Assembly: GCF_013408925.1 (NCBI RefSeq)
Contig: NZ_JACCAB010000001.1
Location: 2,418,001 to 2,482,000, forward strand
Direction: 5' to 3'
Source of the DNA: Pedococcus badiiscoriae
Lineage (GTDB): Bacteria; Actinomycetota; Actinomycetes; Actinomycetales; Dermatophilaceae
Length of the DNA: 64,000 nucleotides
The translations under genes and the position numbers were made by a program. Positions 14,406 to 35,987 of the stretch are shown in pieces (the first letter of the stretch is position 1; every line of letters begins with the position of its first letter). The notes beneath the pieces are model-generated. The model made no database searches, was not told where the DNA came from, and saw nothing but the letters and a program-made list of their open reading frames with translations.

Positions 14406-15146
14406 GTGACGCTGCGGGGCGACCTTCCCTCCGGCGGGCGGGCCTCCGGCACGCCCCGCGCCAGGGCGTCAGCGCGCGCCGCGACGTCACCGCGCGCGAC
14501 GACGTCCGCGCGCGCCACGGGCTCACCGCGCGCCAGGGCGTCGACGGTCGCCGGGGCGTCAGGGTTGGGGGCCCTCCTCACTGACCCATCCATCCTCAAG
14601 GTCATCCGTGGTGCCGACCGCCTCAAGCCGGGGGACGTGCCCAAGAACGGCGTGACGCTCAAGGCCGCCGAGGCCACCCGACTGCTGGGCGGAATCATCC
14701 GCTTCGTGGCCGACGTGCCGGCCGGCTCCTCGCCGATCGTGGTGTGGGAGCAGGACGGCAGCGAGCTGTGGGTCGACATCTCGACCGTCGCCCTCACCTG
14801 CATCCCGGGCGTGATCCGGGTCGCCGTCAAGGTCGGCTGTGACCAGCTGCCCGCACCGGCGGTGATCACGGTGCCCTTCGGGGTCGGCACGCCGGAGGCG
14901 CCCACCGGGCTGGTGATGTCGAGCCTGAGCCGGCTCGACGGGCCGGACGTCGTCACCGGCCGCTGGACCGCGGCCCTCACCGCCTTCACCTGGGAGGCGA
15001 TCCTCGAGCTGGCGCGCAGGATGTGCGCCGAGCTCGGCAAGGACGCCGCCGGGCTGCCCCTCATCCCGGGGTCGATCGCCGCCGGGTCGCAGGTGCTCGT
15101 CGTGCAGCCGATGGCGCGCAACGACCTCTCCGGACTACGGCGCTGA
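14406..15146 (+). CDS. Hypothetical protein, first gene of the DUF6603 operon (246 aa)
   Basis: GTG 14406 is chosen because GGGGAGG lies 6 bp upstream and because upstream in-frame codons overlap the repeat region. The first ~45 residues are a low-complexity basic Ala/Arg/Ser/Thr stretch (RARASARAATSPRATTSARA). A compact domain follows (GLGALLTDPSILKVIRGADR, GGIIRFVADVPAGSSPIVVW, GVIRVAVKVGCDQLPAPAVI) and a helical end (FTWEAILELARRMCAELGKD). No signal peptide or membrane helix is visible. The stop is 4 bp before the giant gene, so they are co-translated. Function unknown; I do not recognise the family. Confidence 0.7.
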   Translation: MTLRGDLPSGGRASGTPRARASARAATSPRATTSARATGSPRARASTVAGASGLGALLTDPSILKVIRGADRLKPGDVPKNGVTLKAAEATRLLGGIIRFVADVPAGSSPIVVWEQDGSELWVDISTVALTCIPGVIRVAVKVGCDQLPAPAVITVPFGVGTPEAPTGLVMSSLSRLDGPDVVTGRWTAALTAFTWEAILELARRMCAELGKDAAGLPLIPGSIAAGSQVLVVQPMARNDLSGLRR

Positions 15147-15150
15147 CGCG

Positions 15151-18100
15151 ATGACGCTGACCCAGGACGGGATGGGCGCCTTCGGGTCGCTCGCCCAGGC
15201 GCTGGGCATCACCGACGGGTCCGGGGCCAACAGCGCGTGGTTCGGCGACCCGATGGGCACCTCCAGCAACACCCACGGGCTGACGACGATCCTCGCCGAC
15301 ACCGGTCAGCGCGACGCCCTCATCGCCTTCGTCGACGAGGCCCTGGGACCGCCCGACCTGCACCGCGAGGGTGAGCAGAAGTGGATCCCCCTGTTCGCCG
15401 AGACCTCACCGGCGATCACCGTGTATGCCGTGGTGGAGCCCGTGCAGGGCGCGGTGCGGGTGGGCGTCGCGGTCGAGCACCATGCCGGGACGGGCGCGCC
15501 GTCGGTGAAGACGACGATCCACGTCCCGATCTTCCACGTCCCTCGCAGCGGTCAGACGGACAGCCGCCCGACCGACGCCACCCTGCCGAGGTGGCTGCTG
15601 CTCGGCCGCCCCGGGGGCCGCATCACCATCGGCGTCGAGGCCGACTTCGCGGCCGCTCCTCCCGTCCCCGGCGAGGCCTACCTCGGCGGCGCCACGGTCC
15701 AGCTCGCCATCCCGACCACCACCAGCGACACCGTCGGCTTCTCCCTCTCCCTCGTCGACCTCCAGCTCCCCGGTGCGACTACCCCGCAGAGCCGGACCCT
15801 CGACCTGGAGTCCCTGGCGACCGTCGGCGCCGACGTCCTCGAGTTCGTCGTCGGCATGGTGCGCCAGCAGATCGACGCGCTCAACCCCGCCGACCCGGTC
15901 TTCCGGCACATCATGGGGCTGGCCGGGATGCTCGGCCTGCGCGGGCCCGCGGTCGGTGTGCCCGCCCTGCCCGTCGCCGAGCTCACGACCCGTGGCCTGC
16001 CGGCGCTCGTCGCGTGGGTCGAGTCGATCCTGGACGACAACACGACCCTGGACGCCTGGCTGGCCGAGCTCGGCGGTCTGGTCGGCGGCACCCCGGACGC
16101 GGCGACGAACTCCGTCGGCTTCGCGATCGGCCCGGCGACGCTGCGCCTCGGTCTGCGGGTGACCCCTGGCACCGGCGGACACCCGACCCTGGTGCCCTGG
16201 CTCGACGTCCGCTGGTCTCCTGCCCCCGGAACCGCCGACCTGACGGCGACCGTCGACCTCCTGCGGGCGGACACCGGCACCGGCTCGGTCACCGCCGTCC
16301 CGGGGTTGCGAGCCGAGGCGGTCTTCGGCTCGCAGGCCCACAGCGGCACGGCACTGCTGACCGGTGCGACGGCGGTAGCTGGTCTGCGGGTCGGCATCGG
16401 CCTGGACGCGGCGCGCCACCCGGCCTTCACCCTCACGCTCCACGGGGTCGACCTCCCTGGGGGCATCCACCACGACCTGCTCGACCTCTCCTCGCCGCAG
16501 GCCGCCGTCGCTGCTGTCGACTCCGTCGTGTCCACGGCCCTCAGCACCGCGCTCTCGGCGCTGGGCGGCGCCCAGGCCGCGGTCGAGCGACTCCTCGGTG
16601 TCACCGCCCCAGCCAACGTCACCGCGATCACCGCCTCGGCCCTCATCGCCGACCCGCTGGCGGCGGTCCGGACCTACTGGCTCGACGTCCTGCAGACCCC
16701 GAACGCCATGGCCGACGTCCTCGGCCGCCTCGCCGAGCTGCTCACCGGCACCGTGGCGGCGCCGACCCAGACCGGGGCCGTGGGCGACCCGTGGCGCCTC
16801 GACCTCGCCAGCGGAGTCGGCCTGCGGGCCTGGCGCGAGACCGACGCCACGCACGGGACCGACACCCTCGTGCTGGCCCTCGGCGCGGACGCAGCCCTGC
16901 CCGTGCTCACTGGCCTCGAGGTCGCGGTCGGCGCAGACGTCGTGCTGCTGCGGGCAGAGCTCACCGCCGGCCACCTGTCCCTGGCCAGCGGCGCGAGCGC
17001 CCACGTACAGCTGCGACCCGCGGCCGCCGGCCCGATGACCCTTGACCTCGAGATCGCGACGGTCGCCTTCACCGGCATCGGCGTCGCGGCTTCGTGGGCT
17101 CCGACAGCGGGGCTGGCAGCGCGCGTCCTCGGCGACGGGCTCACCATCACCTACACCGACCCGCGCACCCTCCTGCAGCGCGTCCACGGCATACCGCTGC
17201 CTCAGATCTCGGCGAGCGGGGCGGTGACGTTCACGCCCGACTGGGACCAGGTGGAGGGACTCGTCACCGCCCTGCTGGGCAGGGCGCGGTCCGACATCCT
17301 CGCCACCTTGCTGGACCTCGTCGGCTGGCGGGGGAGCGGCGCGCACCTGCGCCTCGGCGCCCTCATCGCCGACCCAGGCACCGCCGTCGAGAACTGGTTG
17401 CTCGACCTCGCGCTGGACTGCGTCAACATCCGCACCGCCCTCGGCCCCGTCGCGCTCCTCCTCAGTGGCGGCGGGCTCGCGACACCGTTCGGGGGCGGCC
17501 GGCCGGCGGATCCCTACCGCTGCCCGATCGCCGGCGATCCCCGCGCCCCGGGCCTGGCGGTCTGGACCGTCCCCGGCTGCCCGCCCGTCTCGACGAGCGG
17601 CCCCGGGGGGCCCGGGTACGGCGAGCTGCTGGGCGGCTACACGGTGCCCGACGGACGAGCGATCGCCGCCGCGCTGCGCGCGGCCGGCACCAGTGCGCCC
17701 GACCTCGCCGACCTGCTGGTGGGCCGGACCAGGCTGGGGGAGGGCATCGACTCCCTCGTCACCCGGTGGAAGGACACCGACGGCATCGTCGGTGCGGTGG
17801 CGCCGACCGGCGTCACCACGAGTGTCCTGACCGGCCTGTCGTATGCCGAGCTCGTGGCCAACGGCCGGACCGGCAGCTACGTGCTCGATGGCCTCGGGGT
17901 CGCCACGGACACGGTCGTCCACGTCGGGTGCGCCGCGGACTGGCTCACCGGCGTGCCGGGTGGCCAGGCCATCGACGCGACGACCACGACACCCACGGCG
18001 ATGCCGGCTGCCACCACGGGTCAGTGGTTCGTCCAGCTGCCGACCCCGGCGTCGGTCGCCGCCGAGCGCTCCGACCACGACACGGTCGCCGCGCTCGCGG

Positions 18101-21100
18101 CGCGCCTGAGCCTCGTGCTGGCAGGCCGCAGCGCCGACGTGGTACTCGTCGGGTACGGCCCGGCGGGCGCGGCTGCCGTGCGCGCGACGGTCGGTCAGCC
18201 CAGGGTCACCGCCGTCGTCACCGTGGGAACCCCGTGGTCGGCGGTCGCGCTGACCTCGCTGACCACCGGCCTCGGCGGCGATGCCCTGCGCTTGCTCGAC
18301 CGGCTCGTCCCCGACCCGCTGCCGGTGTGGACCGACACCCTGCTCGCCCTCGGGTGCGACCCGCAGCGCCGTGGCCAGGGCCTGGTGCGGCGGGCTATGA
18401 CGGTGCTCACGCCCGAGGACCTGCCGAGCGCCGCGGCCGAGGTGCTGCCGTCGACGGCCGAGGTGCACGCGGTGTTCGGCGCGGTCCCCGAGGCCGATGT
18501 GCGCTCGGCGATCGCCGCGGTCGCCGCGGCCGGGATCGCGGCGCGGACTGCCGCGGCGGCGGCCGAGGTCGCCCGCACCACAGGCCCCCCGACCGAGGTG
18601 CACGTCGGCGTCGACCTGCCGGTCCTCGACCTCGACCTCGGCGGCCTGCTCGTCGGGGTCGGAGCGCGCGTCGACCTCGCCTCGGCGCGCCGGGCGACCC
18701 CGCACCTCCAGTCGCTGCGCGAGGTCGTCCTCGACGTCCACCTCGGCGTCACCGACGGGTGGCTCGTCGGCGGCCCGGGCGCCGCCCAGCAGGACCTCGC
18801 GGTCCGCTGGGTCGAGGCGCGGGTCACCATCCCGCTCGGCGGGGTCGGCGACGGGGCGACCGAGATCGTGCTCCACGAGGCGCGCGCGTTCGCGGCCTAC
18901 CGCGAGTCGTGGGTGGTGCGCGCCGACGGTGACGGTGTGACGGCGACGACCGCGCTGCCCGAGGTCAAGATCCTGCTGTCCGAGATCGGCACCCGCATCC
19001 GCACGGCTTCACCCGCCCTCGCCGACCTGCTCACCCACCTGGGGATCCTGCGCGACACCGGGGTCGACCCCGACGCGATCGACCACCTGCTGCACGACCC
19101 TGTCACGACGATCCGACCCCTCGTCGTCGCGCGTGCCGCACAGCTCGCCGACGACCTGCGCACCCTGACCGGCGTGACGGTGCGCCCGAGCGACCTGGCG
19201 CCGACCGCGATCCGCATCGGGACCAGCGGCCTGCACGTCGACGTGGACCTCGCCGTGGGCACCGTGACGGGCGACGTGACCCTCGCGGTCGAGGGCCTGC
19301 CCCCGCTGGAGCTGACGCTGGCGGCCGGTCCCACGGGCGTCGCGGCGACCGCGGCCCTCGGCGCCCTCGTCGACGGGCTCGGGGGCATCCGCCTGGTCGG
19401 GTCCGCCGGGACCTCGGGCGCCCACCTGGCCATCGAGTCGCGCGCCGCCGGGGCCACCTCGTCCACGACGACCACGCTCTACCCGGCGGTCGACACCGAC
19501 GCCCTGACCCGGCTGGCCACGGTGGCGGTCCCGGCCGTCCTCGCCCAGCAGCTGGCGCGCTGGTGCCGCACCGAGGCCCGTGACGCCGGACGGGCCACGA
19601 TCGACGCGGGCCTGCTCGCCCTCGGGCTGCTCGGCCCGCCCGGGCCCTCGGGCGTGCAGGACGTCGTGCTGCCGTTCGGGCTGTTCACCGACCCGGGTGC
19701 GTGGTTGCGGACCCGGTCGGATCCGCTCGCCGCCGCCGTCGCCGTCCTCGAGGCGCTGGCTCCCGTCGTCGTCCCGGGTCGCGCTGTCGGCGCGACCGGC
19801 TGGCCGCTGGACAACGGCCTGACCATCGCGTATGCGGTGTCCGCGGGTCGGCTCGACCTGTCCGCCGAGCTCGCGCTGACCCCCGATGTCGCAGGCAAGG
19901 CGGTAACGGTCGCGGTGACCGGGGGGCTGTCCATCACCGCCGCGGGGGCGGTCGCCCCGCTGCTCGACGCCGAGGTCCTCATCGACGGCCCCGGGCTGCG
20001 GCTCCAGGTCGCTCCGACCGTGACCCTCGACTTCGTCCGGACCGCGCCGGGCACGCCGATCCGGCTCTATCCCGCGGGCGCGGGCCTGGCGGACGCCATC
20101 GGGGCGGCGGCCGAGTCCGCGGTGCGGGTCGCCCTGAACGAGGTCGTCGGCCACCGCAACGACGGGTCGGCCACGCCCCTGAGGGCGGTGGCCAGGGCGT
20201 TGCACGAGCTCGGCTCCGGCCTCGACCTGCTCGTGGCCGACCAGTTCACCGACGCACGAATCGCCGCGTTCATCAGCCCCAGCCCCGCGGCATACCTCGA
20301 GGGCCACCTGGCCGGGGTGGTGACGGCCGGCGTGCAGGCCCTGGCGGACGCGCTCGACCCGACCCATGCCCTGGTCCGCGTCGACCCGGTCGCCGGAGGC
20401 GTGCGGCGGATCACCTTCGGGACCGTCACCCAGATCCACCTCGACCTCGACGCCACCACGCCCTCACTGACGATCGGCGGCGATGTCGCCCTGCACGACC
20501 GCGACGCCAACCTCATCGGCCACGTCGCCCTCGAGGGACTGACCCTGTCGCCCTTGGGCGTGCGCGTGGACGTGCGCGCCGGCCCGTTCGTCATCCCCGC
20601 GGGTCCGGTGGTGCTTCGGCCGATCGCGGTCATCCGGGCAGGGTTCACCGGGACCGGCTTCACCCCGCTCGTGGGAGTCGGGGTCGGCCTCGACGCGGAT
20701 GGTGCGCAGTCGGTGGAGGTCCGCTTCGGGGCGAGCGGCGTCGACGTCGCCGCGGTCACCCGGACCGCCGGAGTCGAGTCCGGTGTCGACGTCACCCCTG
20801 CGGGCGTGGCGCCGCGGGTCCTCGGCGTCGCCCTCGACCTGGCCTCCAGCGTGCTCACCCAACAGCTCGGCACGGTGGTCACCGACCGGGCCACCGGCAT
20901 GCTGCAGGGCGTCGTCTTCACCGGTGGCGGGCGCCAGATCGACACCACCCTGTTCGGCGACTTCGAGCACCCGGAGCGGCTGCTCCACCGCCTCGAGGTG
21001 CTCCTGTGGAACTGCGCCACCGACCCCGGGCACGGCGTCAACCCGGTGCGCCCGCTCGGCGTGACCATCGCCGGGGCCGTGAAGATCTCGCTCGCCAGCG

Positions 21101-24100
21101 AGCCCCTCGGCGGCGGGCAGACGCAGGTCGGGCTCAACGTCACGCCGGTGGGCGACTTCGCGTTCCCCACCTCGGGGGTCAACGTCGTCCTGCGGGCAGA
21201 CGCGTCCTGGATCGACGCCACGGTCCAGCCGGGGCTGTCGATCTTCATCCTCAAGGGGACGGGGGTCGGTGACCTGGTGATCTCGCCGGCCTTCACGGTG
21301 GCCGGCCTCGGCGTCCGCATCACCAAGCCCGCCGGTCCGCTCCTCGAGCTGGGCTCGATCGCCCTCGACGGCATCGGCCTGTCGATCTATGCCGAGGTCA
21401 ACCCGGTCGGCGTCGGAGGCGGCGCGCAGATCGAGCTCGTCGGACTCGCGGTCGCGCCCGGTGGTGGCGGCGACAACGGCGTGGCGAACAAGATCATGAA
21501 CGACGTCGGGTCGTCGAGCAAGAACAACCGTCCCAACTTCAGCCCGGCGCTGTCGGTCCAGCGACAGCCCGGACCCGGCCAGCAGATCAAGATCGGGCTG
21601 CGCGCCGGCGAGCCACCGGGACCGTGGTGGCTGGTCATCCAACGCCAGCTCGGGCCGCTGTACGTCGACCGGATCGGGCTGGGCGTCGTCGAGTCCGGCG
21701 GCCGGGTCACCGAGATCTCGCTGCTGTTCTCCGGCCAGCTGTCCGTCTTCGGGCTCACCGCGGCCGTGGACCGCCTCTCGATCACCTGGCACGGCGGCGA
21801 CGTCCTGTCGATCTCCAGCTGGTCGGTCGACCTCATGGGCCTGGCCGTCTCCGCCGACTTCTCAGGCCTGTCCCTCAGCGGTGGCCTGCTCAAGACCGTC
21901 GACGGCGACAGCACGTCCTACGTGGGCATGCTCATGGGCAGGTTCGCGGCCTACGGGCTGTCCGTGTTCGGCGGGTACTCCGACGACGGGCACGGCCACG
22001 CGAGCTTCTTCATCTTCGGCGCGATCAACGGGCCCATCGGCGGTCCGCCGGCCTTCTTCCTCACCGGCCTCGGCGGCGGGCTGGGCATCAACCGCGGGCT
22101 GGTCATCCCGCAGGACATCTCCCACTTCGGTGACTTCCCCTTCATCCAGGCGCTCGACCCGGCCGCCAAGCCGCCGGCCAACCCGATGGACGAGCTGCAC
22201 GCCCTGTCGATCTACTTCCCGCACCAGATGGGCAACTTCTGGTTTGCGGCGGGCATCTCGTTCACCTGCTTCAGCCTCATCGACGGTGTCGCGGTCGTCG
22301 CCGTCTCGTTCGGCAACGGGCTGACCATCGACCTGCTCGGGCTGGCCCGGATGGCGCTGCCCCGGCCGCAGGCGGCCATCGTCTCCATCGAGCTGGCCCT
22401 GCTCGTGCACTTCTCGACGAGCGAGGGCGTCTTCCTCATGAAGGCCCAGCTCACCGACAACTCGTGGCTGCTCTACCGCGACGTCCGGCTCACCGGCGGC
22501 TTCGCGTTCGCCCTGTGGTGGAAGGGACCGCTGTCCGGCCAGTTCGTCGTGACGATGGGCGGCTACCACCCCAGCTTCCACCGTGACGGCTACCCCGTGG
22601 TGCCGCGCCTCGGGATCGTCTGGCAGATCAGCAGCGTGCTCGTCATCAAGGGGGAGTCCTACTTCGCCCTGACCTCCGAGGCGCTGATGGCCGGCACCAA
22701 GGTCGTCGTGTCGCTCGACCTCGGCTGGGTCTGGGCGCGGGTGGAGTTCGGCGCCGACGGCATCGTCTACTTCGACCCGTTCTGGTTCGAGGTCAGTGCC
22801 TACGCCCGGATCTCGGCGGGCATCCACATCGACCTCGGCTGGTTCGGGACGATCAGCTTCAGCATCACCCTCGGCGCGAGCATCACGGTGTGGGGACCGG
22901 ACTTCGCCGGTCGCGCCGAGTTCGAGATCGGGCCGTGCACGGTCCCCATCGAGTTCGGAGGCTCCAAGGCACTGCCGCCACCCATGCCGTGGCCGGCGTT
23001 CGTCGCGAAGTACCTCGAGGCGTCCGGCAGCTCCGCCCGCACCCTGTCGGCCATCACCGGCAAGGGCACGCTGCCGACCGCGGCCGGGAGCCAGTCGGGC
23101 GCGCCGTCCTCCGACGGCACCCCGGCCCTGCCGTTCCGCGTGTTCGCCGAGTTCGAGCTGACCATCACGACGAGTGCGCCGGCGACGGCCTTCGCCTTCG
23201 GTGCCACCACCATCCCGGTCCCCATCGTCCGGGCCGGTCAGGCCACCGCGCTCGGCCTGTCGCCGATGCAGGCCCACGACCTGACGTCCACCGTGGCCGT
23301 CCAGCTCTTCGCGATCGACCCGGTGACCGGCGCCGCCACCCCCGACGCGCGACTGTCCAAGCTGGTCACCGACTTCGACACCAGCCCCACGGGACCGCGG
23401 TCGGGCACCGACTCCTACCCGATCGGGGTGTGGGGGCCGCCGGGAGCCGACGTCCCGAGCAAGCCCCTTCCGCAGGGCGACGTGGTCCAGGCCGGCAAGC
23501 TGGTCGTGCTCGTCGCCGGGATCGAGGGCTCCGCCGTCGGTCCCCAGATCGACTACCGCCAGGTGAAGGCGCGGCCCGAGGACCGCCGCCCCCTTCCGCT
23601 CACCGCCAAGGGCACCGACCGGCAGAAGTTCCTCAACGTCGCCAAGGCCCTGGACGACGCCCCCGTCAAGGCGATCACCTCCGCCTCCGACGCGCTGGCC
23701 CTGGCGGCGGCCCGCCTGTTCACCGAGCGCAACGGGCTGCCCCGTGGCGGGCACAGCGCGGTGGCTCGCGCGGCATACCGGCTGGACCACAGCGCACCCC
23801 CGATGTTCGGCACGCTGACCGACGGGCTCGCGCCGGCGAACGCCGACAACGGGGTCCGCACGCAGCTCGACCCGGTGACCGCACCGGCGCCGCGCGACCC
23901 GCGCAGCCCGTTCGTCGCCGGTCTGCTCACCTCAGGGGTCGGGGCAGTCATCCGTCCCGGCCGGACGACCGTCGCCGACGGCAGGCTCAAGCGTCGCCCC
24001 GCGCCGACGATCGAGTCGGTCCACGGGCGGATGGCCCTGCACCTGCCGGTCTCCCTGACCCTCGGAGCACCTCCGTCGGTGACCTCCGCTGGCACCGTGC

Positions 24101-25113: not shown

Positions 25114-27281
25114 CGATGCAACCGGGCCACTTCCAGCTCTACACGAAGTTCTCGCCCGCCCTCACGGCGGGCAGCTACAAGTTCACGACCAACCAGGACC
25201 TCTCGGCGGTCGGCAAGGACGGACCGCTGGCCCCGACCGACCTGCCCGTGGCCCGGCTCGACACCCACGTCACGGTCACCTCGCCGCGCTACCTGCTGCC
25301 ACCTGACCAGGCCCTCTCGACCTATCCGCCCGCAGGCACCGAGGGCGCCTACGGCTCGCGGCTGCCCCAGGTCGTCATCAAGCGGCGCACCCTTCCCTGG
25401 GAACGGTCCGTGGCCGGAGCGCCGGCCGACACCCCGTGGCTGGCCCTCGTGGTCTTCGCCGAGGGCGAGGCCGACGTGCTGACGAACGTCGACGTGGCCC
25501 AGTGCGTCACCTCCGGCGTGACCCTGCCGGGAGCGCCGGACGTCGCCAAGGGCTCGTGCCTGTCGATCCGCAAGTCGATGGTGGACACGATCATGCCGAC
25601 GCAGAAGGACGTGCCGCTGCTGGTCCACGGTCGCCAGGTCGACCTCGACGACACCGAGCTGATGATGGGCGACGACGACGGCTATCTCGCGGTCGTCATC
25701 GCCAACCGGCTGCCCCTGGCGGTGAAGGACTCCGAGGGCAAGGAGGTGCCCGTCAAGTACAACGCGTGCCTGGTCAACCTCGAGGGCCAGTTCGACCAGC
25801 TGCTGCCGCAGGCGCCCCCGCACCGTCGCATCACCGACCACCTGGTGCTGGAGACCGGGTACTACCAGTACACCCAGGCTGCGTACGACCAGAAGCTCAT
25901 GGGGATGTCGACGACGGCGACCGTCGTGGGGCTGGGCGCCCACGGCGAGGCTGTGGACGGGCCGGCCGGGGGACCGGCGCCCGCAGCTGGGCCCGCGCCC
26001 GAAGCGGCTGTGGTGGCGACCCACTTCGCTGCCACGGTCAGCCCCGAGACGGCCACCGCGGCCTACGCGGGGTCCACCTCGTGGGTGGCCGGCAGGAGCT
26101 CCGCCTCCGTCGCTCACGACCAGGTCGTAGCCAGGATCGACGACCGCATCATCGCGGCGCTCGACCCGGTGCTGCGCTTCCCCGTGCTGCTGCGCTGGAG
26201 CTTCACCTCGGTCGGCGACGCCACCTTCGAGCAGCTGATGAAGCACGTCGACTCCGGGCTGCTCGGTACCCGAGGAGTCACCCCGGTCGTGCCGGTCGGG
26301 AGGGCCCCCCTGGAGGTGACCGAGACCGGACACGTGGGCCTGGACCAGCGCACCCGACGGGGTGACCTGGTGCGGGCCTGGTACCGCGGACCGCTCCTGC
26401 CGCACCCGGCGGACCTCGCCGGCCCGCGGCTGCCCCTCGCCCACACCGGAGACCAGCTGCGCGCGGTCATTCCCGACGGCCGCGAGGACCTGTCGTTGGC
26501 TGCCGCCTTCGAGATCGGCCGGCTCCTGGCCCTGAGCCAGCCCTCGATGGTCGCCGCCCTGCTCGAGTGGCGGCAGCGGCACTACCAGGTGGCGCGCGGG
26601 CACGCGATCTGGGACGGCGTCATCGCCGACCTGGGTCTCATCGGTGTCGAGATGGGGGTCGCCCCGAGCCTCGGGGTCATGCTCTCCCGCGCCTTCGCCG
26701 GAGCCGCGGCGAACGCCCCCGGCGCTGTCATCGGGCCACCTCGCGAGCTGGTCACCCCGGGCGCCCCGATGGAGCTCAAGGGGGAGGGGCTCGCCACCGT
26801 GCTCCAGCACTTCGGGCTCGACGTCGCCGCCGACGTGGAGCTCCCCGTCCTCCTGCAGACCCTGCGCACCACGCAGGTGCCCCGCGTGCCCCTGGCCGAC
26901 CTCACGCGCCCAGCGGCCAACGCGGTGCTGACGTCCGCCCTGCGCACCGCCCAGGAGCGCACCGTCACCCAGCTCGTCGCCGGTGCCCTGTCCACCCAGA
27001 TCCTGACCGGGCCGGTGATGCCGGTCGGGCACCCCGGCACCCCGGGACTGCCCGGCGGCATCCTCGGCGGCGTGCCCGTCGTGCCGCACGACGCCCCGCT
27101 GGCCGAAGGGCAGGACCCCCTCGACCTGGCCCTGCACGGCAGGGCCGGCGACGACCAGGCCCCGCCCGACCAGGCGACCCCCAAGGCGGAGCCCAAGGCG
27201 TCGCCCAAGGGAAGGGCCAAGGGGACATCCAAGGGGACGCCGAGCCAGCCGTCTCCGCGCGGCGGAAGGAGGAGGTCGTGA
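25110..27281 (+). CDS. Hypothetical large protein of the DUF6603 operon (723 aa)
   Basis: Start ATG 25110 overlaps the giant gene stop; AGGAGG lies 11 bp upstream. The protein opens MTMQPGHFQLYTKFSPALTA and continues with strand-rich sequence (LPVARLDTHVTVTSPRYLLP, TPWLALVVFAEGEADVLTNV). The second half is more helical (EDLSLAAAFEIGRLLALSQP, then MVAALLEWRQRHYQVARGHA). The last ~40 residues are a Lys/Pro/Gly-rich tail (TPKAEPKASPKGRAKGTSKG). No signal peptide, membrane helix or catalytic motif. It resembles other conserved proteins of unknown function that I associate with DUF6603 neighbours, but I cannot name a family. Confidence 0.75.
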   Translation: MTMQPGHFQLYTKFSPALTAGSYKFTTNQDLSAVGKDGPLAPTDLPVARLDTHVTVTSPRYLLPPDQALSTYPPAGTEGAYGSRLPQVVIKRRTLPWERSVAGAPADTPWLALVVFAEGEADVLTNVDVAQCVTSGVTLPGAPDVAKGSCLSIRKSMVDTIMPTQKDVPLLVHGRQVDLDDTELMMGDDDGYLAVVIANRLPLAVKDSEGKEVPVKYNACLVNLEGQFDQLLPQAPPHRRITDHLVLETGYYQYTQAAYDQKLMGMSTTATVVGLGAHGEAVDGPAGGPAPAAGPAPEAAVVATHFAATVSPETATAAYAGSTSWVAGRSSASVAHDQVVARIDDRIIAALDPVLRFPVLLRWSFTSVGDATFEQLMKHVDSGLLGTRGVTPVVPVGRAPLEVTETGHVGLDQRTRRGDLVRAWYRGPLLPHPADLAGPRLPLAHTGDQLRAVIPDGREDLSLAAAFEIGRLLALSQPSMVAALLEWRQRHYQVARGHAIWDGVIADLGLIGVEMGVAPSLGVMLSRAFAGAAANAPGAVIGPPRELVTPGAPMELKGEGLATVLQHFGLDVAADVELPVLLQTLRTTQVPRVPLADLTRPAANAVLTSALRTAQERTVTQLVAGALSTQILTGPVMPVGHPGTPGLPGGILGGVPVVPHDAPLAEGQDPLDLALHGRAGDDQAPPDQATPKAEPKASPKGRAKGTSKGTPSQPSPRGGRRRS

Positions 27282-28267
27282 GGATCGACGTGCCCACCAT
27301 GGTCCTCGACCTGCCGCTGCGACTCAGCGAGGCGGTCGCCGTCGCGACGACGATCAAGGACGACGACACCGACTCGGCCATTCCCGCGGCCCTGCGCGCC
27401 TGGCTGGTCCGGCTCCGGCTGCTGGAGGGAGTGCCCTTCGCCAACCTCGTCGCCGACACCGAGCTGCTGCCGCCGGAGTCCATCCGCTGGTTCTACCTGG
27501 ACCGCCGGTGGACCGATGCCCTGGTCATGGGCGCACTCTCGGTCGGCACCGTGAACAGCGACGACCGGACCCAGCTCGCCGCCGCCTACGACGCGATCCG
27601 CACCGAGCTGGACCAGGAGGAGCGCAACGCGCGCCGGCACCCGGGTCAGCCGCGGTTCGGCGGGTCGGTCGACGCGGTCAGCGGCTTCCTGCTCCGCTCC
27701 CGGGCCGTCTCGGGGTGGCCGGGACTGCATGTCCGGGCGATGACGATCGACCCCGTCGACCAGGCCGACAACCGGTTCGTCCCCGACGACGACCCGAACC
27801 GGATGCGGCTGCTGCGCCTGGAGCGGCTCGCCCCGGCGGTGCTGTTCTGCCTCTTCGACGGCATCCCGTCGGTCGTCCACATCGAGGAACCACGCCAGGG
27901 CGTCCAGTTCGGCTTCGACCCCGGCGACGTCGACGGGTCGTTCAGCTACATCCCGCGCGACGTGGCGACCTTCGCCGACCTCGAGGAGCCGGGGGGCGCC
28001 CCGGTGCGTCTCGACGTGCCGTTCCGCGACACCGCGGGCGCCACCGGGGTCATCGACATCCAGCAGGTGCAGAAGGACCTCGTCGGGCTGCCAGCGACCC
28101 ACGTCGGGGCCAGCCTCGACGCCGCGGAGTATGCCCTGCAGCTGCTCCGCTTCCCCTACCGGCAGGTCTTCGGCGACCCGCGTGACGTGAGCATCGGCAC
28201 GGTGTTCAAGGCCTCCGTCGCCTATGCCAAGCAGGTCAACGACACGTTCAGGCTCGGAGGCCTGTGA
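27278..28267 (+). CDS. Hypothetical protein of the DUF6603 operon (329 aa)
   Basis: GTG 27278 overlaps the upstream stop (GTGA) and follows GGAAGGAGGAGG; an in-frame ATG at 27299 is an alternative. The sequence begins VRIDVPTMVLDLPLRLSEAV and includes a helical part (TELLPPESIRWFYLDRRWTD, RTQLAAAYDAIRTELDQEER) and strand-rich parts (GLHVRAMTIDPVDQADNRFV, VLFCLFDGIPSVVHIEEPRQ). No known catalytic motif or export signal. Its position inside a 4-bp-overlap operon argues that it is made stoichiometrically with its neighbours, perhaps as a subunit. Confidence 0.72.
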   Translation: MRIDVPTMVLDLPLRLSEAVAVATTIKDDDTDSAIPAALRAWLVRLRLLEGVPFANLVADTELLPPESIRWFYLDRRWTDALVMGALSVGTVNSDDRTQLAAAYDAIRTELDQEERNARRHPGQPRFGGSVDAVSGFLLRSRAVSGWPGLHVRAMTIDPVDQADNRFVPDDDPNRMRLLRLERLAPAVLFCLFDGIPSVVHIEEPRQGVQFGFDPGDVDGSFSYIPRDVATFADLEEPGGAPVRLDVPFRDTAGATGVIDIQQVQKDLVGLPATHVGASLDAAEYALQLLRFPYRQVFGDPRDVSIGTVFKASVAYAKQVNDTFRLGGL

Positions 28268-31200
28268 TGGCCGGCTTCGACCTGACTCCCGACCAGCTCG
28301 CCAAGAGCGTCTACACCGACCGCTTCGCCGCGCTCGCCCGCGCCGACGTGGACCTCGCCACGTGGAAGACGTGGGACCCCCACCTGGTGCGCGAGAAGCG
28401 GATCCTCGTCCCCGTCGACGTCCAGGCCTACGTCGTGCCGGCGGGTGGCCAGGAGGTGTGTGTCGACGTCGCCGGGGTCGACGGTGACCCGGCGCCCTTC
28501 GACGCCGGCGCGGTGCGCCCGGCCGGGGTGCACCTGCACTGGGCGCTGCCGGACGCGTTGTTGCGCGGCGAGAACGACCCGGTCACCAAGAAGGTCGTCC
28601 TGCCGCGACTGCCCGACCGGTGGGTCGTGGTCCGCACGCTGCTCCCCGAGGGTGCCCGCACGGCATACGCCTCGGGCTGGGTGCTGGACGCGGTGACCTG
28701 CGGCGTCACGCCGCTGGCCACGTATGCCGGGGCCGTGCCGCCGGGGTCGCCACCGCTCGATGGAGGGGTACCGATGGCGGTCCTCGACGGGGCGGCCCGC
28801 GGCAGCCTCCTGTGGACGTCGACGTACGACGGTGCGATCAACCGCTTCGCGCTGCACGACCCGCTGACCGACCTGCCCGGCCTCGAGGTGGCCCCGCACG
28901 GCTTCCACCGCGGCAAGGCGAGCTACACGGTCGCCGGCTGGTGGACCGACTCGGGCGCGGACCCGCTTGCCGGGAGCTGGGGGCAGACCGGTGTGCGAGC
29001 GCGACTCGCCGAGCTGGGGTGGTGGGTCAGCCCTGACGGCGAGGACGCCGTGGATTACCCCGAGGACCCCCGAACCTCCAAGCTCGAGCAGTATGCCGGG
29101 CTCACGTCGCCGCGCACGTACGCACCGATGACGGTCCAGACGCCGTACGCGAAGTCGACCACGGCCTACAGCGCGGTCGCGCCGGAGACCGCGCTGCCGG
29201 TTGCCGAGGTGGCCGCGGTGACGGTGGGGATCGGGACCACGCGCTACCACACGATGCTGCACGGCTCGGTCCTCGGCGTCCCCGTCGACGGCACGGCCGG
29301 CGGTGCCGACGACCGGCCCGACCCGTCGACGCTGGCGGCGAGCCTGGGGACCGACCTCGACGACATCGTGTCGGCCTTCGCGGCCCCGGCGCTGGGGGTC
29401 GACCCGGGGAAGCGCCTCACCGCCGAGCGGCTCTGCGCGGCCTTCACCGGCGACCTGCTCGGGCGGATCGGTACGCCCGACGGACTCTCCGACCTCGCCG
29501 ACCAGGAGCACGCCAACGGCTTCTGGGCGCTTCCCGGCCGCCCCCTCGCGGGGGCGAAGGCGGACCGCCTGCGGACCGAGGACTCGACCCCCTTCGGCCC
29601 CCTCGCGGTCGGCCGCAAGGGCCGGGCCGCCACGCAGCCGGTCAAAGGATCCGGCGTGCCCAAGGGCACCAAGGTCGGCTGGCGCGGGGTCGCCCCGCTG
29701 ACGAGCGGCAAGCACACCACCGTGAGCGACGCAGCGACCGGCGAGCGTGACGACCCGGGGGCGGGGACCCGCAAGCCCGGGACGCCGCCCCCCGCGAGTC
29801 GCGACGTGGCCCGTGCCGCGCCTCGCGTCTTCCGCCCCGCCCCCCTGATGGTCGGCCTGCGTGGCGTGCACCCCTCAGCGCGCCACCACGGCGACGGGAT
29901 GTTCGACGACCACGGGCTGCTGCGCTGCCGCTTCCCCGGTGAGGTGTCGCCGTCGATCCACGGCTCGGTCGACGGACGGTCCGTGCTGCCCACCCTGGGC
30001 AACGGCGCGGTTCCCAGCGAGGTCACCCGGGTCGTCCGCGAGGCGATCATCGTCGACGGGTACTCGGTCGGCTGGCTCGCGGCCTCGTCAGGTCGCACGG
30101 GTGCGGATGCCCAGGCCCTCGAAGGCCGCCTGACCGCCGAGATGCTGCGCCTCTATGGCACGACGGCCACCTACGACGGATCGGGCACCGGCCTGGTCGC
30201 CGCCGCGGCGCGGGCCAGGATGCCGCGGGCGGCCGCCCAGGATGCCTGGTCGGGCTACTCGCAGACCCAGGAGGTCACCACCCTCCAGGTCGCCGCCGAG
30301 CTGTCCCGGTTCTCCCTGGTCGCCTGGACGCCACCCAGCCCGATCGCGATCACGACCTGGCGGCAGCCGTGGGTCCCGCTGTGGCTCGAGTGGCGGGTCG
30401 AGCTGACCGGCACCGAGGACCTGGGCGGCTGGTCGCTCGTGGACGGAGACCTGCGCCGCACCACGCCCGTCGACGGGACGACGCGGACCCTGACCGGACG
30501 CAGCCCGCTGACCACCGGGGTGGGCAAGTCCCTGACGACCGCGATGGCCGCCTGGCTGGCGCAGGAGGATTCGCGTGACCTGGCCTCCCCGAGCCAGTCC
30601 CTGATCCCCGATGCCGACGAGAACGTCCTGACCGCGGTGGCCAACCTGGTCCGGCCGCTCGACCTGTGTTCGGCGTCCTTCGACGGCGTCCGGGAACAGC
30701 TGCTCGGGATCGCCTACGAGGGTTACGTCCAACGGGTCCGCGGCACCGACGGGGTCAGCCGGCCACGCGCGACAGGACTGCCCGTGCCCCTGTTCGGTGG
30801 CACCCTCTCGGTGCTGGACCTGCGGCTGGTCGACGCCTTCGGGCGGGTGGTCGAGATCCCGCTGACGGGGCTCGCGCGGACCAGCACCCAGGAGCTGCCC
30901 GACAAGCCGACGGGGGTGCTGCTGCCCCCACGCATCCAGAACAGCGCCCGGTGGCTGCTGCGACTGGTCGACCCGGCATACGGGCTGGACCAGGATCCGG
31001 CGGACGCCCCGGAGGCCTATGTGGACCAGCTGCGGGCCCCGCTCGCGGTCACCCCGGTCTCCGGCTTCCTGCTCCCCGACCACATCGACGAGGGGCTCGA
31101 GGTGTTCGACCGCGACGGCAACCCGCTCGGGCAGCTCGAGCACGACTCGTTCAGCGTCGACGACGGCCCCGGTTCGGTGCGGTGGGACCCCGCGCCCGGG

Positions 31201-32136
31201 CGGCCGGTCCCTCCGGATGCCGGACCGCTGACGGACATACCGGCGCACGCGCAGCACGTCGCCCTGTTCGCCGCCGGGCTCGTCCAGGCCGACATCGAGG
31301 CCCGGCAGGCTGCCACCCCGCCCTCGAGCAGTGCCCTCTCGGCGCTGTTGCGTGCGATCGACTCGACCCTGTGGACCGTCGACACGTTCGCCGCCATCGG
31401 GACCCCGACGATCGCCGGCCTGGTCGGGCGTCCGGTCGCCGTCGTCCGGGCCACGCTGCGGCTGGACGCCCCCGACGACGTCGACGAGGTGCAGGTCGAC
31501 GAGGGCGGCGGCCCGGCCGCCCGCCTGGCGGCATACTCCTCGCTCGCGGCCCACGAGTTCCCGTTCCGCATCGGCGAGCTGGGGCGCAGCGACGACAGCG
31601 TCCTCGGCTTCTTCGTCGACGACGACTACACCCGCTTCCACGTCGTCGACAAGGTCGTGGCCGACTCGGCGCTCGCTTCCGGGCCACGCACTGGTTTCCT
31701 CGGGCGCCTCGGCGACACCCCGGGACACGACCCGATCGACCACGGCTACCTGGTGCTCGAGGACACCCTGACGATCCGGATCGGCCAGACCGTCCGCCTG
31801 ACGATCCTCATGCTGCCCGCGGGCAAGGTGCACGTCACGTCGGGCATCCTGCCGCGCAAGGCGCTCGAGCTGGCCGACACCTGGGTCGGACCCGGTCTGG
31901 CCCGGATGGTGCCCTCGATGCGCGTCGGACCGCTGCTGGTCGACCCCGCCGAGATCAGGTTGCCCAATGTCGCCTCGCTCGGCGGCAAGCAGCAGTTCAC
32001 CCGGCGCACCGGGCCGATCAGCTGGAAGGACGACCCGATCCTCGCCTCGACCACCAACGCGTACCTGCCCAAGATGCCGCACGAGGTCCAGGAGGGCTGG
32101 ATCCGCGTGGCGCCCGATGAGGGGGCCACCCCGTGA
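28267..32136 (+). CDS. Hypothetical large protein of the DUF6603 operon (1289 aa)
   Basis: ATG 28267 is preferred over GTG 28264 because GGAGG (28256-28260) is then 6 bp away. The N-terminus (AGFDLTPDQLAKSVYTDRFA, then LARADVDLATWKTWDPHLVR) leads into strand-rich segments with recurring VHLHWALPDALLRGE-like and WVVVRTLLPEGARTAYASGW motifs. The middle carries a variable low-complexity stretch (SGKHTTVSDAATGERDDPGA). The C-terminal third is again beta-rich with acidic loops (APDDVDEVQVDEGGGPAARL). There is no signal peptide. The VHLHWALPDALL wording seems conserved in actinobacterial proteins of unknown function, but I cannot attach a function. Confidence 0.75.
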   Translation: MAGFDLTPDQLAKSVYTDRFAALARADVDLATWKTWDPHLVREKRILVPVDVQAYVVPAGGQEVCVDVAGVDGDPAPFDAGAVRPAGVHLHWALPDALLRGENDPVTKKVVLPRLPDRWVVVRTLLPEGARTAYASGWVLDAVTCGVTPLATYAGAVPPGSPPLDGGVPMAVLDGAARGSLLWTSTYDGAINRFALHDPLTDLPGLEVAPHGFHRGKASYTVAGWWTDSGADPLAGSWGQTGVRARLAELGWWVSPDGEDAVDYPEDPRTSKLEQYAGLTSPRTYAPMTVQTPYAKSTTAYSAVAPETALPVAEVAAVTVGIGTTRYHTMLHGSVLGVPVDGTAGGADDRPDPSTLAASLGTDLDDIVSAFAAPALGVDPGKRLTAERLCAAFTGDLLGRIGTPDGLSDLADQEHANGFWALPGRPLAGAKADRLRTEDSTPFGPLAVGRKGRAATQPVKGSGVPKGTKVGWRGVAPLTSGKHTTVSDAATGERDDPGAGTRKPGTPPPASRDVARAAPRVFRPAPLMVGLRGVHPSARHHGDGMFDDHGLLRCRFPGEVSPSIHGSVDGRSVLPTLGNGAVPSEVTRVVREAIIVDGYSVGWLAASSGRTGADAQALEGRLTAEMLRLYGTTATYDGSGTGLVAAAARARMPRAAAQDAWSGYSQTQEVTTLQVAAELSRFSLVAWTPPSPIAITTWRQPWVPLWLEWRVELTGTEDLGGWSLVDGDLRRTTPVDGTTRTLTGRSPLTTGVGKSLTTAMAAWLAQEDSRDLASPSQSLIPDADENVLTAVANLVRPLDLCSASFDGVREQLLGIAYEGYVQRVRGTDGVSRPRATGLPVPLFGGTLSVLDLRLVDAFGRVVEIPLTGLARTSTQELPDKPTGVLLPPRIQNSARWLLRLVDPAYGLDQDPADAPEAYVDQLRAPLAVTPVSGFLLPDHIDEGLEVFDRDGNPLGQLEHDSFSVDDGPGSVRWDPAPGRPVPPDAGPLTDIPAHAQHVALFAAGLVQADIEARQAATPPSSSALSALLRAIDSTLWTVDTFAAIGTPTIAGLVGRPVAVVRATLRLDAPDDVDEVQVDEGGGPAARLAAYSSLAAHEFPFRIGELGRSDDSVLGFFVDDDYTRFHVVDKVVADSALASGPRTGFLGRLGDTPGHDPIDHGYLVLEDTLTIRIGQTVRLTILMLPAGKVHVTSGILPRKALELADTWVGPGLARMVPSMRVGPLLVDPAEIRLPNVASLGGKQQFTRRTGPISWKDDPILASTTNAYLPKMPHEVQEGWIRVAPDEGATP

Positions 32137-35100
32137 CCGGCAAACGGCGTGCACGGCTGGGATCCGCCGCCCAGCGCGAGGCGTTGGCGGCCGGACTGCG
32201 TCGGGAGGCGGCGCGGGCGGCCAAGCGTGGCATGGCCGCCGAGCGGGCCGCGCGAGAGGCCCAGCTGCTCGACGGCGTCGACCGGGTGGCGCTCGAGGAA
32301 GCCATGCAGTCGGTCCTCGCCGCTCGCGAGGCGGCGGCACCCGCCCCGGCGCCTGCGAAAGCGAAGGCCGCCCCGCACGCCGCTGCGGATGCCGCCGCCC
32401 ACGCGGCGGATGCAGGTGCCGCTCACGCGGACGCCGCGCTGGCCTTCCCCGCTGCCGCGAACCCTGCCGGCCGCTGGGTGCCCATCGGACCCTCGGTCGT
32501 GCGGCGCGGTCAGGCCGTCGACCGCCCGCGGGTCGCCGGCCGCATCCGCGACATCGCCGTCGACGCGACGGGGCTGCGGGCGTATGCCGCGACGGCCCAG
32601 GGCGGGGTCTGGTACACCGACGACGGCGCCGCGACGTGGTCGCCGGTCGGCGGCTGGTCCGAGCGGCGCAGGATCCGTGGTGGAGCGGTCAATGCCCAGG
32701 CGTGCGGGTGCCTCCTCGTCGCCTTCGACCCGATGCCCATGCTCGACGTCGTGCTGGTCGGCACCGGCGAGCCCAACTTCCTCCCCGCCGCGTTCGTGGC
32801 TGCCACCGGCGAGGCGACCATCGACGGAGTCGGGGTGCTGTCCGCGCTCGGGCCGACGTTCCCGGCCGGTCAGGCCGAGCCGTGGGAGGTCGACACCGGG
32901 ATCGCCCAGCTGGAGGGCCTGGGGATCTTCAAGCTGCTCCGCAGCCCCGCGAGCACCCCTGGCGAGGCCGCCGCCGGAGCCACCCAGGACGTCGTCGTCG
33001 CCTGCACCACCAACGGGGCCTTCCTCGGCCGCCGGCAGTCGATCCCGGCTGGTGGCGGCAACCCGGTGCGCGACGGCTACGTCTGGCAACAGCTCGCTGC
33101 CGTGTCGGCTGCCTTCCCCGGTGCGGCGATCTCCGACGGCATCTGGCTGCCCGGGGGACGCCTCGTCCTCGCCGTCACCGGTCAGGGGCTCGCCTTCAGC
33201 GACAACCTGGGCGCCGCGGTGACACCCCTGCCGCTGACCAACCCGGTCCCGATCACCGGCCACATCAGCCTCGCCGCGACCGGCAACACGGTCTACGCGA
33301 TCGGCGAGACAGGCGGCAACCCGGCCCTGTGGCGCGTCGCCGACGCGACCGTGGCCGCCCCGACCGCCGACGACGTCGGCACCCCCGGTGCGGCCACCGG
33401 TGTCCCGGCGAGCTTGTGGAACATCGCCGGCAACAACCAGCGCGACTACGACCAGTGCATCGCGGTCGACACCGTCGGAGCGGTCCACCGCGTCTATCTG
33501 GGGGGCAGCTCGTTCTCCTACGGACCGGCCGACGGCGACTGGGGCGCGAGCCTCTACTGCTTCGACGTGGCGGCCTCGGGGGTCGCCAACCCGCCGTTCG
33601 TCCTCCAGGCCACGGTGGGCGTCTCCTCGGCGGCGCCGCTCCCGGGGGGTGACGGCGCGACGGCCGCGGGAGCCATCGGCAACAACGTCCACGGCGACGT
33701 GCACCGGATCGTGCTGACCGGCAACGCGCCGCCGCGCCGCCAGGTCTGGGCCGCGACGGACGGGGGCACCTTCGTCTCGGACCGCTCCGGCCGCGTCGGC
33801 ACCTTCGCGGCGTGCAACACCGGGCTCGCCTCGCTGCAGCCGGTGTTCGTCCGCAGCCACCCCGTCAACGGGCACCTCGTCGCCACCGGCTGCCAGGACA
33901 ACGGCAGCCAGGTCCGCGTCGGCGACTCCGTCTGGGACGAGCCGTTCACCGGTGACGGCGGGGGAGTCGCCTTCCACCCGACGGCCTCGCACCTGCTGGT
34001 CCGCCAGTTCAACAGCACCCGGTGGTACTGCACGTCGACGGCGGCCTTCGTCGACCCGATGACCCGCAACCCCGGTGAGCCGAGTCGCCTGGTGGGCCCC
34101 GGTCCCGAGGGCAACTTCGCCGCCTTCTACTCCGGCGCTGCCACCGTCCGGGTCCCGCCGGTCGGGGCCAACCCCGCCACTGGTCGGCTCGCCGTCGGGA
34201 CCTACCGGGTCTGGCTCACCGACGACCTGGGCGCCGCGGTCGCCCCCAACACGTGGCGCACGATCCCCTACCCGAACGGGGTCGCCGTCGACGGGCGCCC
34301 CGGCGTCAACGGCGCCGCCACGCCACCCCAGCTGCAGATCGGGCTGACCGCCCCCTACCTCGGCACGATCACCACCCTCACCTGGGCGTCCCCGACCCAG
34401 CTGCTCGTCCTCTACACCCGCGGCATCGTCCGCTACACCGAGGCGCCCCCGGGGACCTGGGCCTCGACGACCTGGTCGATCACCAACCTCGCCGTCGCGA
34501 TCCCGCGGACCACGACGTTGACGGATGTCGCGGCAGTGCCCGGCACCCAGGACTTCTACGTCGCGACGACCGGGGTGAACGGCGGTCCCGACGAGACACT
34601 GTGGTTCTTCAACAACGCCGACGGCCGCTTCAAGCGCACGCTGCTGCGCCGTCAGCTGGACGCCGGTGGGGCCCTCAACAGTGGCCCGCGCGACCCGGTC
34701 TTCTCCGTCGTCGTCGACCCCGGCGACGCGACCGGCAACACCGTGTATGCCGGCAGCGTCACCGGTGTCTGGGTGGGCACCCGCACCAACAACGCCACCG
34801 GGGCGCACACCTGGGTCCCCTACGTGAACGGGCTGCCCCAGGCGACCGTGCAGGACCTCGACATCTGGCGCGACCCGGGTGGCGCGCTGGCGGCGCCCCG
34901 GCTGCTGCGAGCGGCCGTGCAGTCGCGAGGGGTGTGGGAGGTCGACCTGGCCCGAGATGCCGTGCCACAGACGTGGATCCGCTCGCACCGGTTCGACGAC
35001 CGGCGCAATCCGCTGACGGTCCATACCGACCCCCTCTCTGCGCCGCCCGCCCTGCCGGCGTCGCTCGGGGCGAGTCCCGACATCGCCGTCCGCCCGAAGT

Positions 35101-35987
35101 GGCCGGTCGCGGCCACGCCGGCCTTCCTTCCGGCTCCGGCCATCACCGCGATCAACGCGCCGGCCTACGACGTGTGGACGTTCCAGACGGCCTTCCGGTG
35201 GCTGTACCCCAGCGTCGTCGCCAACGGCGTGTTCTCCGACGCGCTCGGGCGGCTGGTGGCGTTGCACCGCACCCAGATGGTGCCTCCCAAGACCGCCGTG
35301 CCACAGATCGACGCGGCGGTCTGGGCAGACGTGGTGGGTGGGGTGCGCGTCAAGGCCGACGGCACGGTGACCACCGACACGGCAGACCCGCGGGCGGTCT
35401 ACCGCGCCCCGTGGCAGACACCGCGTGCCGCCACCGTGACGGCGACCGAGGCCGACCTGCTCGACCTGGTGCCCCGCAACGTCGTCAACGACCTGTGGAC
35501 CGTGTTCCGCGAGCCGTCGACGGTCGACGTGCTCGTCCACCACCGCGATGCCCTCGGGCTACGGGCCAACCAGGGCTTCGTCGTGCTGCTGTGGCGCGCG
35601 GGGGCGACTCCCTCGGACCTGCTGGCCCTGTCGGCGACCACGCTCCTGCCCTTCCTCGCCGCGGCCGCGGGCGGGACGGCGCAGCCGGTGCCGGCTGGGT
35701 GGAACCTCGCGACCGGCGGGGGCGGCGTCACCTGGCGCACGGTGCCGACGGCCGTCGACGCCCGGATGCCGCGAGCCGTGTCGATCGACGTCGACCTCAC
35801 CCCGGTGGCGGCCAGGCAGCAGGTGCTGTTCCTCGCGTTCGTGGGGTCCATCGGCGCCGGAGAGGTGTTCGTGCCGCCGACGACGGCGCCGGGGGCGGTC
35901 GTCCCCCCGACCACCGTGGCCGAGCTCGTGCGCTACTGCCCGTATGCCGCCGCCCGCATCGTCCACATCGAGAACCGCCCCACCTGA
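32133..35987 (+). CDS. Beta-propeller protein closing the DUF6603 operon (1284 aa)
   Basis: GTG 32133 overlaps the previous stop. The first ~110 residues are an Ala/Arg-rich helical, probably coiled-coil region (AAGLRREAARAAKRGMAAER). Then come propeller-type blades with Asp-box-like turns (GVWYTDDGAATWSPVGGWSE, VWAATDGGTFVSDRSGRVGT, VAFHPTASHLLVRQFNSTRW, TVYAGSVTGVWVGTRTNNAT). A separate ~250-residue C-terminal domain (FQTAFRWLYPSVVANGVFSD through RQQVLFLAFVGSIGAGEVFV) ends near a two-Cys-poor tail. No export signal. It resembles the secreted propeller at 10234 in blade type but not in start or tail. A binding or scaffold role is likely; no enzyme motif seen. Confidence 0.75.
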   Translation: MTGKRRARLGSAAQREALAAGLRREAARAAKRGMAAERAAREAQLLDGVDRVALEEAMQSVLAAREAAAPAPAPAKAKAAPHAAADAAAHAADAGAAHADAALAFPAAANPAGRWVPIGPSVVRRGQAVDRPRVAGRIRDIAVDATGLRAYAATAQGGVWYTDDGAATWSPVGGWSERRRIRGGAVNAQACGCLLVAFDPMPMLDVVLVGTGEPNFLPAAFVAATGEATIDGVGVLSALGPTFPAGQAEPWEVDTGIAQLEGLGIFKLLRSPASTPGEAAAGATQDVVVACTTNGAFLGRRQSIPAGGGNPVRDGYVWQQLAAVSAAFPGAAISDGIWLPGGRLVLAVTGQGLAFSDNLGAAVTPLPLTNPVPITGHISLAATGNTVYAIGETGGNPALWRVADATVAAPTADDVGTPGAATGVPASLWNIAGNNQRDYDQCIAVDTVGAVHRVYLGGSSFSYGPADGDWGASLYCFDVAASGVANPPFVLQATVGVSSAAPLPGGDGATAAGAIGNNVHGDVHRIVLTGNAPPRRQVWAATDGGTFVSDRSGRVGTFAACNTGLASLQPVFVRSHPVNGHLVATGCQDNGSQVRVGDSVWDEPFTGDGGGVAFHPTASHLLVRQFNSTRWYCTSTAAFVDPMTRNPGEPSRLVGPGPEGNFAAFYSGAATVRVPPVGANPATGRLAVGTYRVWLTDDLGAAVAPNTWRTIPYPNGVAVDGRPGVNGAATPPQLQIGLTAPYLGTITTLTWASPTQLLVLYTRGIVRYTEAPPGTWASTTWSITNLAVAIPRTTTLTDVAAVPGTQDFYVATTGVNGGPDETLWFFNNADGRFKRTLLRRQLDAGGALNSGPRDPVFSVVVDPGDATGNTVYAGSVTGVWVGTRTNNATGAHTWVPYVNGLPQATVQDLDIWRDPGGALAAPRLLRAAVQSRGVWEVDLARDAVPQTWIRSHRFDDRRNPLTVHTDPLSAPPALPASLGASPDIAVRPKWPVAATPAFLPAPAITAINAPAYDVWTFQTAFRWLYPSVVANGVFSDALGRLVALHRTQMVPPKTAVPQIDAAVWADVVGGVRVKADGTVTTDTADPRAVYRAPWQTPRAATVTATEADLLDLVPRNVVNDLWTVFREPSTVDVLVHHRDALGLRANQGFVVLLWRAGATPSDLLALSATTLLPFLAAAAGGTAQPVPAGWNLATGGGGVTWRTVPTAVDARMPRAVSIDVDLTPVAARQQVLFLAFVGSIGAGEVFVPPTTAPGAVVPPTTVAELVRYCPYAAARIVHIENRPT

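Follow-up and report, generated by a model that had tools for sequence, protein, structure and literature searches.

With which partners does a giant DUF6603 protein work, and what might they build together? We addressed this question at an operon of six open frames, A to F, all on the forward strand at 14406–35987 of a 64,000-nucleotide stretch of Pedococcus badiiscoriae DNA (the window), whose host genome comprises 3.39 Mb in one contig. The constant core of this locus consists of the DUF6603 protein, the products of C and D (C-D) and E, and is smaller than the six-gene operon. We tentatively read the products as several proteins that assemble in the cytosol into one machine, which would combine a lipid-contacting sheet, arms for binding and a cargo of enzymes.

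A conserved core of DUF6603, C-D and E

Gene B (15151–25113, +) encodes the 3320-residue DUF6603 megaprotein. Its match to PF20248 (E 7e-117; residues 2163–2622, 21637–23016, +) scores 391.5 bits against a curated cut-off of 27 bits, which places it in the family. B is followed by C (25110–27281, +, 723 residues), D (27278–28267, +, 329 residues) and E (28264–32136, +, 1290 residues). Fused-type relatives, including those on the Paenibacillus polymyxa, Streptomyces and Embleya plasmids, have one gene where the window has C and D: window C aligns to positions 21–427 of the fused protein (hhalign E 7.7e-35), its N-terminal part, and window D to positions 524–752 (hhalign E 1.1e-31), its C-terminal part.

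Using tblastn, we found A–F in the same order in a genome of the same genus (G005, 86–92% identity) and in one from another genus of the family (G027, 42–63% identity), and relatives of B, C, D and E on the three plasmids. A pattern scan of GTDB species genomes with a profile of E, blind to DUF6603, confirmed 125 stretches, the best 80 of which were kept and represent 78 distinct loci. Together with the three plasmids, G005, G027 and the window these give 84 E-bearing loci. Genes of relatives were predicted with our own codon-score caller and no standard program; it missed window C, which was added by hand, and E in five loci, which was recovered by a six-frame profile search. DUF6603, C-D and E follow each other on one strand in 82/84 loci, the remaining two being contig ends. 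This order, which we call type I, is that of the window and is also present on Streptomyces clavuligerus pCLA1. By the labels of the genomes or bins that carry it, the core spans Actinomycetota, Bacillota, Bacteroidota, Pseudomonadota, Acidobacteriota and SAR324. Since synteny persists in other genera, classes and phyla, the arrangement of the operon exceeds chance.

The same partnership is seen in an even sample of 296 genomes of the phylum, not chosen for E and with our own genome included. DUF6603 was found in nine and E in four, all of which carry the cassette (hypergeometric P = 4e-7 for co-occurrence of E and DUF6603, ignoring relatedness). The four are the window genome, G297, G338 and G352, the last on a contig that ends inside E. 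G352, labelled as the same phylum but not the same class, keeps a homologue of A, a 3233-residue B and split C and D. In the other five genomes DUF6603 is followed by a protein that we designate c35, without E; four of them also match a very large partner and a further protein, c95 (within one frame in G286), and the fifth, G299, lies at a contig end. All nine DUF6603 genes of the sample therefore belong to one of two cassettes.

The second cassette, type II, has the order DUF6603, c35, a protein of 1,500–2,100 residues and c95, with no E and no full C-D. It shares part of the core, as c35 and C have a domain in common (hhalign probability 92, E 5.6e-7, 79 columns). Type II loci were found in G048 (L017-L018), G086 (L021-L022), G030 (L024-L025) and L129-L133; the large protein and c95 of G086 match no Pfam family. 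DUF6603 is present in 11 of the 98 genomes of a closer set. Three of these are type I (G000, G005 and G027) and three type II with c35 (G048, G086 and G030), while G071 holds a DUF6603 fragment on an 8-kb contig. The remaining four (G003, G006, G007 and G008) show a weak DUF6603 match (E ~1e-6) in a protein of ~2,250–2,300 residues, which has a different partner in G003 and G006.

A preliminary description of this locus had proposed a candidate undescribed system of six genes, and had raised the question of whether these six always travel together. The survey retains the co-travelling unit and the undescribed system, but reduces the constant set from six genes to DUF6603, C-D and E: A and F turned up in the window-type lineage only, and DUF6603 also has its second cassette. 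Homologues of the flanking genes do not routinely occur without DUF6603. The single genuine exception, on a Paenibacillus sonchi plasmid, has C-D and an E that is spread over two frames. No DUF6603 was detected there, a transposase lies close by, and we regard this cassette as a decayed copy.

Among the matches listed, the nearest named relatives of window E come from Pedococcus and Ornithinibacter bins, and the window group sits apart on a long branch in a quickly built tree of 77 E proteins. One E gene (L114, G338:C30:39300-42749) contains a single in-frame TAG, in a decaying or misread copy, with the rest of its cassette complete. Three type I cassettes (L062, L063 and L104) lie on a single chromosome of Streptomyces noursei.

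A predicted amphipathic sheet with putative Ig-like partners

B is 48.7% identical to its G027 homologue across the full length. Residues 1001–2640 (18151–23070, +) contain 36 strongly amphipathic β-type 11-mers (25 + 11), compared with ~14 in shuffled sequences (z 5.9 and 4.0). From this and from modelling, DUF6603 is predicted to form a large sheet, made of long amphipathic β-strands, that has one hydrophobic face and could contact lipid. A BLAST of B against itself revealed no internal repeats, Pfam searches with pieces of B gave no match of note, and the DUF6603 profile found nothing credible among PDB sequences. C-D is predicted to contain immunoglobulin (Ig)-like sandwiches plus a helical stretch. 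Compared with the PDB and a library of viral folds, the C-D model had no credible fold match, with no hit at E 1e-3, and the profiles of E and C-D retrieved nothing credible from PDB sequences.

Other parts of the DUF6603 proteins drew our attention. Residues ~1000–1130 of B (window ~18150–18550) look by eye like an α/β-hydrolase, with GYGPAG at the place of the nucleophile elbow and no Pfam match there. A conserved N-terminal domain with the motif [SA]RHH[IV] is fused to DUF6603 in L058, L063, L068 and L076, and stands alone beside it in L105:3619-5037(-). An HNH-like reading of this N-terminus was set aside, as Pfam gave no support in the pieces scanned.

Variable genes at the two ends of the cassette

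We surveyed the 5′ side of 75 type I loci for a same-strand gene within 250 bp of DUF6603. Such a gene is present in 26, and 14 of these are enzyme-like, mostly of metallo-β-lactamase type. The metallo-β-lactamase family, c3, supplies 11 of the 26, with gaps of 13–64 bp. All 11 c3 genes occupy the 5′ position and 10/11 keep the [ST]H.D.DH motif; Lactamase_B matches 3/59 accessory proteins (best E 4.1e-10), not every c3 reaching the Pfam cut-off. Two more are EEP-type genes, with GD.N and SDH kept, and one is M91-like. The c3 and EEP-type proteins had no PDB match at 0.01. In the 296-genome sample, the 5′ gene of type I is of metallo-β-lactamase type in G297 (E 0.005) and of window type in G352 and the window; G338 has no same-strand 5′ gene. 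The type II genes at this position in the sample encode an M64 peptidase (G202, E 9.9e-22), a PhoD-like protein (G147, E 2e-5, below cut-off), a 999-residue protein (G299) and a protein with no match (G379); in G048, a type II genome of the closer set, the gene encodes a PLD protein (E 1.7e-8). In the window the position directly 5′ of DUF6603 is taken by A (14406–15146, +, at most 246 residues), which has no recognisable domain.

On the 3′ side, 69/79 loci carry after E a family with a constant two-domain head, Ig-like by eye and not by Pfam. The ten loci without it are three of the window group, one of P. polymyxa and six that end within or shortly after E (L031, L050, L070, L085, L092 and L108). 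The heads of 86 such proteins fall into one similarity cluster and the tails (at least 60 residues) into 16. Pfam domains among the 59 accessory proteins include hemopexin in eight, Collar in two, F5/8C in two and M60 in one.

The place filled by this Ig-headed family in fused-type cassettes is held in the window by a different protein, F (32133–35987, +, 1284 residues). F is a probable Asp-box β-propeller, judging from the motif YTDDGAATW and an NCBIfam match (E 9e-4) far under the cut-off, and has no signal peptide; neither Pfam at E 1 nor the PDB sequences at 0.01 yielded a match. Next to F, on the reverse strand, G (36027–37238, −, 403 residues, cluster c34) encodes an Asp-box/WD-type propeller that matches designed WRAP-T propellers in the PDB (E 2.7e-5) and no Pfam family. 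G adjoins F in the window and in G005 and G027, the two other A–F genomes found, and belongs to the neighbourhood as a seventh gene.

Export signals are scarce throughout. Signal-peptide-like starts were seen in 8/398 cassette proteins compared with 70/602 neighbours, and membrane helices in 2/398 compared with 74/602.

The conserved core, the 5′ enzyme genes, the changing arms, the few export signals and the amphipathic sheet led us to the reading of a machine assembled in the cytosol, which we hold as possible and short of probable. The DUF6603 sheet would bear a scaffold of C-D and E, targets would be recognised by arms consisting of F, G or the Ig-headed proteins, and the 5′ gene product, where present, would be enzymatic cargo. 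The particle would exit by lysis or another non-classical route and take this cargo to its target, a cell or a surface, where the hydrophobic DUF6603 sheet would engage the membrane. For the window this would make F and G the arms and put A in the cargo position.

Several observations weigh against a delivery machine of this kind. No translocation engine, pore or cargo-loading part was recognised in the cassette, export by lysis is an assumption, and the signal-peptide rule is home-made. As 46/75 type I loci have no close same-strand 5′ gene (three more are cut there), cargo is not universal. Some 5′ genes are not enzymes: at least four of the 26 encode hemopexin or propeller proteins (L079-L081 and L106), and the 5′ gene of the type II cassette in G286 encodes a WD40 propeller. 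Other enzyme assignments are marginal, with a Pfam E of 0.02 for the EEP-type protein of L086, none at 0.01 for that of L057, and an E of 0.001, below cut-off, for the M91-like protein. The best enzyme matches, M64 and PLD, sit in type II and not in the window's own type, and window A matches no enzyme. Most tails of the Ig-headed proteins are of one kind, since the largest cluster holds 61/86; F is no homologue of the Ig-headed family, and their common role would follow from position. The structural models cover DUF6603 and C-D, and that of DUF6603, with a predicted template modelling score (pTM) of 0.53, is compatible with a groove, a barrel or a sandwich. Window C also beats its shuffles in amphipathic 11-mers (z 2.2).

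The scarcity of export signals would also suit an intracellular conflict or anti-phage defence system, in which propellers and Ig-headed proteins sense a structural protein of the intruder and a 5′ nuclease-like protein or hydrolase kills the cell or the invader. Some cassettes have nuclease-type folds in the 5′ gene, the distribution is sporadic (E in 4/296 genomes), and CATRA conflict-system and CHAT-domain genes lie ~5 kb from a Streptomyces plasmid cassette (L013:4570-9626), all of which points the same way. Against this, PADLOC returned 0 families for the six proteins at E 1, which places them in no known anti-phage defence system, and no NTPase family is among their Pfam matches. No relative of E was found in viral contigs and none of C-D in 50,697 phage records, and most of the mass looks structural. 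We judge defence decidedly unlikely.

The binding modules allow another view, that of a surface or matrix assembly such as a large adhesive or sporulation-linked coat, with propellers, lectin-like and hemopexin modules binding polysaccharide. This appears improbable, given how few of the proteins bear export signals. The core also occurs in Chryseobacterium, Tateyamaria and a gammaproteobacterial bin, which are not known as spore-formers, and Tad genes were not found near the G005 copy.

Layout of the operon in the window

The coupled six-gene operon of the preliminary description is confirmed by the open frames, which total 7,192 residues when A is counted as 246, and by their junctions, a 4-bp gap between A and B and 4-bp overlaps at B/C, C/D, D/E and E/F. 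The annotated start of A at 14406 is doubtful, and the true start is probably nearer 14565, because homologues match late, the N-terminus is of low complexity (residues 1 to ~45) and our gene caller begins at 14565. The alignment of A homologues begins at residue 48 in G005 and at residue 72 in G027. The single control region suggested ahead of the operon was not recovered, as a sigma-70 scan of 13860–15200 gave no promoter-like site, a weak test at 71.5% guanine-cytosine content. The energy cost of a 21.6-kb operon, advanced earlier as an argument for selection, does not count as evidence.

The gene just ahead of the operon (10234–13866) encodes a propeller protein of the sortilin/Vps10 type, whose start is signal-like. 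No homologue of this protein was found beside the G005 and G027 cassettes, except for weak matches to their F proteins. The A–F cassette itself sits in a slot between Tad-pilus-like genes (6098–10038) and an acyltransferase/MeaB-like pair (38137–40323), all named by eye. In the same-genus genomes G003 and G006 (L026-L029), the corresponding slot holds a two-gene cassette of a weak DUF6603 protein of ~2,250 residues and a protein of 640–1,256 residues. The Tad pilus genes are absent from the G005 stretch (~10 kb 5′ of the cassette), for which reason we abandoned the idea of a functional tie.

Comparison with known systems

Profile searches of all six proteins against Pfam, NCBIfam, PHROGs and PADLOC gave DUF6603 as the sole informative match, with no PHROG match below E 0.07. 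The relatives listed (best 120 of 307, 204 and 430) are all hypothetical, uncharacterised, putative or nameless. Neither DUF6603 nor PF20248 is named in any paper of the open-access library that our search covered, as distinct from subscription papers, preprints and supplements, which bears out the view of an undescribed system. These searches and those of viral contigs and phage records also agree with the earlier exclusion of a contractile system, a nonribosomal peptide synthetase and a phage module.

Extracellular contractile injection systems (eCIS) resemble the cassettes in having proteins without signal peptides, binding fibres and exchangeable enzyme genes. Hemopexin is one predicted eCIS-associated anti-eukaryotic domain in an excerpt of PMC8213781. 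The cassette core proteins, however, match no eCIS family: no sheath, tube, spike/PAAR, baseplate or AAA ATPase is among the Pfam matches of the six proteins, and no eCIS family is among 25 of the 28 families listed for the 59 accessory proteins, in a search limited to cassette proteins. We also discarded a link to the baseplate-V/DUF4280 genes that the P. polymyxa plasmid carries 9–12 kb upstream, because other genes intervene and the two stretches inspected, for which the gene table is incomplete, show no annotated sheath. Tc toxin complexes and Rhs cocoons likewise combine very large co-assembled proteins, propellers and an exchanged enzyme part, but the six proteins have no Rhs, TcA or TcB match in Pfam or NCBIfam at E 1 and fall outside these families.

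The long run of amphipathic β-strands in one giant protein recalls the repeating β-groove proteins of the AsmA-TamB-VPS13 kind (excerpts of PMC11014939 and PMC10943745). This likeness raises the alternative of a machine for lipid or another hydrophobic cargo inside the cell, in which DUF6603 would provide a groove or belt as in repeating β-groove or apolipoprotein sheets, C-D, E and the propellers would serve as scaffold or docking parts, and the 5′ hydrolases would process the cargo. We consider this alternative unlikely. As to kinship with the groove proteins, neither the six proteins nor the pieces of B match AsmA, TamB or chorein sequences, and the fold comparison of the DUF6603 model (pTM 0.53) has no groove protein among the matches listed, which does not exclude one. 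The ApoB100 belt and outer-membrane barrels superimpose with root-mean-square deviations of 5 to 12 Å and 4–12% identity, with no sequence kinship shown; the DUF6603 protein differs from them in lacking a signal peptide and in occurring also in Gram-positives.

A further comparison is with the type II cassette, which likewise starts with DUF6603 followed by a protein with a C-like domain, and in some genomes has 5′ enzyme genes, but which replaces E and full C-D by its large partner and c95. Returning to the cytosol-built machine, the cassettes may work like a delivery system, and are not members of any known one testable here. DUF6603 cassettes could then be a third class of delivery machine that bacterial cells build, with no relation to either phage tails or Tc toxins; we rate this proposal as somewhat unlikely. 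In it, a membrane-engaging amphipathic sheet would be joined to an Ig-rich C-D/E scaffold, changing arms and swapped enzyme cargo, in two types with a common core of DUF6603 and the C domain. Whether it delivers cargo or handles lipid, the machine would be a new one, and the analysis supplies DUF6603 with a testable set of partners.
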